From Rhizobium leguminosarum bv. trifolii WSM1325 (GTDB lineage: Bacteria; Pseudomonadota; Alphaproteobacteria; Rhizobiales; Rhizobiaceae), in assembly GCA_000023185.1 (NCBI GenBank), contig CP001622.1, forward strand, positions 2,666,001 to 2,730,000: 64,000 nucleotides of DNA, written 5' to 3'. Numbering within the stretch: the stretch's first letter is position 1; each line of letters begins with the position of its first letter. A program made the translations under genes and the position numbers. Of this stretch, positions 30,766-31,866 are shown one piece after another. Below the pieces are notes generated by a model. The model had not been told where the DNA came from. It made no database searches and saw only the letters and a list, made by a program, of their open reading frames with translations.

Positions 30766-31866
30766 CTTGTACGTTGCCGTTGCTGTATAAAGGGGCTGTG
30801 CGGCGGGGATGCGTGTCATCCTTGGGTCTTGAACTCGTACCTCAGCAAGCATCTCCGTCGCCATGTCTTCGCTCGAACGGTTGGTTGGGCTTCGAGCCCG
30901 CGTTGCAAGGAGGAGCAGTCATGCATATCCAGCAATCTTTCATGGTCGGTATCGATGTCTCGAAGGCCCATCTCGACGTTGCCGTTGAGGGCAAACGCGC
31001 CGTTGTCCGCTTCGACAACAATGCGCCAGGCTGTGCCGCACTCACTGCGGCAGTGGCCGGCGCAGAGCTTGTCGTCGTCGAGGCGACCGGCGGTTACGAG
31101 ATGGCAATCGTCAGAACGCTTATGGCCGCCGGTATTGCCGTCGCCGTCGTCAATCCCCGCCAGGTGCGCGACTTCGCCAGGGCCAGCGGTCGTTTGGCCA
31201 AGACCGATCAGGTCGACGCCCGCGTCACGCTCCACTTCGCCAGAGCGATGCGGCCGGCACAGATCCCCCATATCGACGACGGCCGCATCGCGCTTGCTGC
31301 GCTTGTCACCCGCCGTCGCCAACTCATCGACATGGCGGTCGCCGAGAAGAACCGCCTCGAGCATGCGCCTGAGGCCGTCGCAGCGCTGATTGGCGAGACC
31401 CTCGCCGCCCTCAGGGCTCAGCTCGCCCGCGTCGATGCCGCCATCGCGCTCGCCATCGAGGCCGAGCCCGACATGGCCGCACGCCGCAATCTGCTGCTGA
31501 CCGTGCCGGGCATTGGCGAGGTCAGTGCCGCCGTGCTCATCGCCGAACTGCCCGAACTCGGCGCCATCGACGACAAGAAGCTCGCAGCCCTCGTCGGCGT
31601 CGCCCCCATCGCTCACGACAGCGGCACATGGCGTGGACAACGCCATATCGCCGGCGGCCGCGCCACCGTCCGATGCGCCCTCTATATGGCTACGCTCTCG
31701 GCCATCCGTTGCAACCCGGCCATCAAGACCTTCCACAAAAGGCTGCGCGACGCGGGCAAACCGCCCAAGGTCGCCATCGTCGCCGCCATGCGAAAGCTCA
31801 TCATCATGATCAACACTATTCTTAAAAGACGAACCCCATGGAACCAGCCCCAACAACACGGTTGCT
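30766..31866 (+). mobile_element. Complete IS110-family insertion sequence in a REP site
   Basis: The ends are read from the interrupted REP: the left flank reads CCCTCATC-CT (30758-30767) and the right flank CT-GAGGTGCGC (31865-31875), which rejoin as a normal REP outer part. A CT dinucleotide thus stands at both junctions, as the recombination core does in IS110-family elements. The element is about 1.1 kb, with no terminal inverted repeats and no target duplication beyond the core. The left end (30768-30920) is non-coding; the right end is essentially nil, since the transposase runs to the junction. Confidence 0.88.
30801..30915 (+). ncRNA. Candidate bridge RNA of the IS110 element
   Basis: The non-coding left end holds TCATCCT (30816-30822), identical to the left target half and core (30761-30767). 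CGTACCTCAG (30836-30845) is complementary to the right half CTGAGGTGCG (31865-31874) with one G-U pair. Further on, ACGGTTG (30877-30883) repeats the element's right end (31858-31864), and a hairpin GGGCTTCGAGCCC separates it from GCAAGG (30905-30910), which complements the left end CCTTG. This is the order of target-binding and donor-binding loops in bridge RNAs. The 5' and 3' ends are estimates. Confidence 0.6.

Follow-up and report, generated by a model that had tools for sequence, protein, structure and literature searches.

In the IS110 family of insertion sequences, the bridge RNA, REP targeting and covariation have been established for IS621 (PMC11208160; PMC11208158; these and the other papers below are cited for particular passages), and the catalytic residues of its recombinase are D11, E60, D102, D105, and S241 (PMC11208158). 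In IS1111-type elements with a seekRNA, e.g., ISPa11, an RNA from the non-coding end selects the target, and ISPa11 uses REPs (PMC11187229). ISRm19 of Sinorhizobium meliloti is an IS110 element reported in REP sites in four of four copies (PMC1525189), and in ISPpu9, also of the IS110 family, small RNAs and the structure of the leader control the transposase (PMC8450116). The bridge-RNA principle is thus already established, and what is new here is the element and its guides. Our literature search, which covered few subscription papers and is weak evidence of absence, found no paper joining bridge RNA, IS110, and rhizobia.

The window analyzed here is a stretch of 64,000 nucleotides from Rhizobium leguminosarum bv. 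trifolii WSM1325 (GCA_000023185.1, contig CP001622.1, positions 2,666,001 to 2,730,000), and it contains an IS110-family, IS621-like insertion sequence (Table 1). Very probably, the left end of this element encodes a bridge RNA that pairs with both the REP target and the junction of the element's own circle on behalf of the recombinase.

Ends and Neighborhood of the Element

The element lies between a hexapeptide-repeat gene on one side and a gene with an ICMT domain on the other. A sequence-only reading of the window had claimed a CT core at each end, fixed by the REP that the insertion interrupts, and both cores are present. In three congeners the two flanks of the locus are joined without the element, the site being CCTCATCCTGAGG in L251, CCTCATCTGAGG in L245, and CCTCATCCAGAGG in L244 (L numbers designate loci), and these uninterrupted sites indicate that insertion leaves no target duplication beyond the core. 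The left end has 153 non-coding nucleotides and the right end has none, which is the layout of the IS110 group. The IS1111-group trait, an RNA region downstream of the gene, is absent here, the right end being without non-coding bases.

Table 1. Features of the IS110-family element and its insertion site (positions within the window).
Feature	Position	Strand	Basis or remark
IS110-family element, both CT cores included	30766..31866	+	Junctions, identical copies, uninterrupted congener sites
CT cores	30766-30767 and 31865-31866		Read directly
Interrupted REP, left part CCTCATCC, first core base included	30759..30766	+	Sequence
Interrupted REP, right part GAGGTGC...	31867..31912	+	Sequence
Intact inverted partner REP	30614..30653	-	CCTCATCCTGAGG at 30641-30653, minus strand
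Non-coding left end with predicted bridge RNA	30768..30920	+	RNA start put at about 30797 from the -10 box
-10-like box TATAAA	30786..30791	+	17-bp spacer to TTGCTT formed at circle junction
Target-binding loop, 12-bp outer stem 30801-30812 / 30849-30860	30801..30860	+	Predicted fold
Left target guide (LTG) TCATCCT	30816..30822	+	Equals left target half plus core
Right target guide (RTG) CGTACCTCAG	30836..30845	+	Pairs with core and right target half, one G-U
Donor-binding loop, closing stem 30871-30874 / 30913-30916	30871..30916	+	Predicted fold
Left donor guide (LDG) ACGGTTG	30877..30883	+	Equals element's right end
Right donor guide (RDG) TTGCAAG	30903..30909	+	Pairs with element's left end CTTGTA
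AAGGAGG, Shine-Dalgarno-like	30907..30913	+	Overlaps donor loop; role presumed
Recombinase gene, 315 aa (30921-31865), TGA stop 31866-31868	30921..31868	+	

A Single Class of REP Target

Three full, identical copies of the element and one diverged partial copy (on contig C2) are present in the WSM1325 genome, and the full copies all occupy the same REP position, CCTCATC-CT-GAGGTGC. Among the copies read, the left junction carries CCTCA and the right junction GAGG in all 22 distinct full-length contexts, the left one being exactly CCTCATCC in 17 of them; in partial copies the left junction is slightly more variable (CTTATCC in L073, GTCTCATCC in L081). Across the genus, a DNA match to the element, in many cases a short one, was obtained in 66 of 148 genomes. 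The sequence-only reading had reasoned that copies with the same guides at unrelated sequences would speak against guide function; comparison of insertion sites placed the element's own copies all in one kind of site, and none was found at an unrelated sequence.

The intact 13-mer CCTCATCCTGAGG occurs 22 times in the WSM1325 genome, with 14 further occurrences at one mismatch, and a reversed control pattern of this 13-mer occurs once in all. An inverted partner lies within 150 bp of 20 of the 22 exact REP sites, in a hand count from site positions that accepts exact, one-mismatch, or occupied partners. For every occupied REP, the inverted partner is intact and lies about 110–120 bp from the element. 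On contig C1, the REPs are mostly arranged as inverted pairs with a spacing of about 75–135 bp. The partner REP in the window contains CGTC (30616-30619) and may therefore be a member of the CGTC-tagged repeats described from alphaproteobacteria (PMC3733652).

Predicted Guides in the Left End

Four guides can be read in the left end (Table 1). The identities of TCATCCT with the left target half and of ACGGTTG with the right end of the element, both taken from the earlier reading, are exact. For CGTACCTCAG, which had been described as complementary to the right half, sequence and position hold, with one refinement: bases 30836-30837 also pair in a predicted apical hairpin, so that the part exposed in the loop is closer to 30838-30845. 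Absent from that reading is the right donor guide, which forms six pairs with the element's left end, one of them G-U. The layout had been likened to the target- and donor-binding loops of IS110 bridge RNAs, and the order and strand sense of the guides do match the IS621 scheme (PMC11208160; PMC11208158). When the left end, taken as 154 nt, was shuffled 50,000 times (first-order Markov shuffles), the left-target 7-mer appeared in 367 sequences, the right-target 10-mer, with one G-U allowed, in 64, and the donor 7-mer in 479; no sequence contained all three.

In the bridge RNA that we propose for the left end, LTG and RTG belong to a target loop, and LDG and RDG to a donor loop. By analogy with the IS621 work, the element would pass through a circular intermediate with the junction ACGGTTG-CT-TGTACG, and the RNA would be transcribed from a promoter formed at that junction. 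The RNA would present the REP site and the circle junction to the DEDD/Ser recombinase, which would join the two at the CT core, with strand exchange presumably as in IS621.

Covariation of Guides with Targets and Element Ends

Relatives at 34–48% protein identity were gathered with their flanks. Selection started from 190 oriented loci, of which 146 had a protein identity of 75% or less. From these loci 57 elements were hand-picked and reduced to 46 (one per subgroup) or 24 (one per letter group); element ends were set by copy comparison or by end motifs, and the subgroup borders were drawn by the analyst. Loci with uncertain ends were left out (among them L049, L051, L137, L200, L205, L241, L034, L038, and L040), as were truncated loci and close duplicates, the Syntrophorhabdus set L024-L030, in which the left end is where the contig begins, and further loci that were not inspected individually. 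The LDG position of L048 was set by hand in the anchored RDG and loop-shape tests, and not in the target-guide test.

Over the 46 subgroups, in what is the strongest of the tests, guides and targets covary. The fit of guides to their own targets was reached by 0 of 20,000 permutations for the left half and for the right half, and the same holds for the total and with one element per letter group (24). Without the core, own targets scored 4.90 of 6 on the left and 4.84 of 6 on the right, vs. 4.06 and 3.75 for swapped targets. No swapped target outscored the own one in 23 of 46 subgroups when six bases were compared, and in 17 of 24 letter groups with five bases. Individual pairs include L151 (guide GTCATCCT for flank GTCATCCT), L155 (guide TCCGGGAT for flank TCCGGGAT, with an AT core), L181 (guide AGCTAGAG for right flank CTCTAGCT), and L127 (guide TAAAAAAG for right flank CTTTTTTA). 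Several swapped targets fit better than the own target for L100, L186, L106, L131, L136, L193, L053, L033, L196, and others. The clearest misfit among the distant relatives is L177, in which the right guide is kept as in its kin and the right flank is unmatched. The right flank of L132 and L177, which are the same locus, starts with TGTCTT, like the element's own left end; this locus is perhaps a rearranged or deleted tandem copy.

The donor guides covary with the element ends as well. For the LDG and the element's own right end, 0 of 20,000 permutations reached the own fit (46 subgroups). For the RDG and the left end, a first test omitted the core and placed its windows by their distance from the extrapolated gene start; here the own score was reached by 157 of 20,000 permutations (p about 0.008). 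It was replaced by a second test, anchored on the LDG and using the core plus five bases, in which the own score of 269.0 was reached by 0 of 20,000 permutations (shuffled maximum 264.5); this stronger result depends on the choice of the anchored, core-including test. The statistics on the target guides are from an anchored test as well; an unanchored scan puts some guides at unlikely positions.

Related recombinases are thus found at different targets with guides that match them, a pattern that, together with covariation over both target halves and the element's own ends and with the failure of shuffled left ends to produce the three matches jointly, argues against the recombinase protein alone recognizing the REP. 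Such recognition, of the sequence or of the palindrome, would fit the location of the target in a palindromic REP with an inverted partner, as well as the many subgroups that also sit in repeats, but it would reduce the left-end matches to remnants or coincidence, and we consider it highly unlikely.

Some of these other sites are of different kinds. A distant subgroup (five copies, L146-L150, in genome G363, and also L175 and L127) is flanked on one side by a GC-rich inverted repeat with GGC or GCC at its end and on the other by a T run, and the guides of this subgroup read AGCCGGCTT and AAAAAAGC. Judged by eye, the site resembles an intrinsic terminator with its hairpin and T-tract. The Rhizobiaceae IS110 subgroups L042, L043, L189, L151, L155, L160, L163, L194, and L202 have matching guides each, and they appear to lie in different short repeats.

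Predicted Fold and Promoter

In the predicted fold, both target guides face each other in the target loop, and both donor guides lie in the donor loop. The folding energy of the left end, taken as a single sequence, is not unusual (z -0.55). In the alignment of 17 subfamily members 98.3% of cells pair, stem covariation among these members is weak (two pairs have changes in both partners, a count reached in 34 of 500 shuffles), and the donor loop has no covarying pair. The evidence for the loops must therefore come from the wider relatives, where the target-loop shape, defined by at least 5 closing and at least 3 capping pairs, was found in 39 of 46 subgroups vs. 148 of 920 shuffled controls. 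Since an Rfam scan of the left end at a relaxed threshold matched no family, a covariance model was built from the subfamily instead. The search took 36 loci, two of them close relatives; among the 34 distant ones the model recovered 24 left ends with E-values of at most 0.01 and 4 more at E 0.019–0.3, and missed 6 (L100, L122, L163, L166, L194, and L242).

In the window copy, joining of the ends in the circle would create a candidate promoter, TTGCTT-17-TATAAA, whose -35 box fits only 3 of 6 bases. By promoter consensus score, the circle is better in 19 of the 22 contexts and tied in 3. Neither the missing TTGAC box at the right end nor the missing 5' stem-loop could be kept as a trait unique to the subfamily, other subgroups looking similar.

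The AAGGAGG motif lies inside the donor loop, and RNA folding might therefore affect translation of the recombinase. A left end that serves chiefly as a structured leader regulating this translation, and not as a guide, is nevertheless scarcely credible despite this overlap and the precedent of ISPpu9 (PMC8450116), because regulation alone does not predict that the loops covary with the target and the element ends. Leader regulation and a guide role could coexist.

Recombinase and Target-Supplied Stop Codon

The recombinase contains the Pfam domains DEDD_Tnp_IS110 and Transposase_20; a DEDD domain and a C-terminal domain with the catalytic serine are present, as in the IS110 group. Among PDB entries, ISCro4 comes closest in sequence (147 bits), followed by IS621 (140 bits). 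D12, E54, D96, D99, and S234 align with the IS621 catalytic residues, DEDD and Ser being kept (the numbering of the IS621 PDB chain is that of the paper plus two).

An unusual detail of this element is that its target completes the stop codon of the recombinase gene, the TGA consisting of the core T and GA from the target. The frame runs through the right end, so that the stop exists only where the core T precedes GA, as in the guide-selected REP. This arrangement was found in 19 of the 22 distinct full-length contexts, and L063, L065, and L094 have other frames at the right end. Among the 57 sampled elements, it is present only in subfamily A, in two of its three sampled copies (L063 excepted). 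When the window copy is read across the circle junction, LYVAVAV is added before a TAA. Several other copies have the same or a near-identical tail and others a longer or different one, which argues against one conserved tail. It is conceivable, and in our judgment doubtful, that the target-dependent stop locks guide and coding sequence together, such that the protein would end normally in a REP and carry a tail when made from the circle, and the recombinase would sense its integration state. No paper joining IS110, stop codon, and circular intermediate was found in the same search, with the same weight as evidence of absence.

Comparison with Known Systems

Overall, the guides match both the landing site and the element's own ends, and relatives with different guides lie at different sites, which argues for a well-supported added member of the known IS110 bridge-RNA elements. 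At the level of sequence, the demonstrated support comprises the ends, the uninterrupted sites, the one target class, the guide matches, the covariation, and the catalytic residues. The ends and guides of an IS110 element could thus be read correctly from raw sequence. The relatives, most of them from a single bacterial family, make up a natural series for covariation, with guides that appear to read REPs, other intergenic repeats, and terminator T-tracts. This series provides candidate guide-target pairs for compact-RNA bridge recombinases.

Like IS621 of E. coli, the element has a related recombinase with the same catalytic residues, a CT core, a REP target, and a left-end RNA, predicted here, in which a target loop is followed by a donor loop. 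It differs from IS621 in its REP and its guides, in a left end of 153 nt as compared with an IS621 RNA of 177 nt (PMC11208160; PMC11208158), and in a right end without non-coding bases, where the target completes the stop codon. In addition, there would be no room for a 5' stem-loop if the RNA starts as placed from the -10 box. By protein sequence alone, the closest solved recombinase is that of ISCro4 (PDB 9t56). By description alone, the element resembles ISRm19, another rhizobial IS110 element in REPs, the account of which (PMC1525189) predates bridge RNAs. With IS1111-type elements it shares an RNA of the non-coding end, predicted here, as the target selector, and with ISPa11 among them a REP target; in IS1111-type elements the RNA lies downstream of the gene and there are subterminal inverted repeats (PMC11187229), whereas here the RNA region lies upstream.
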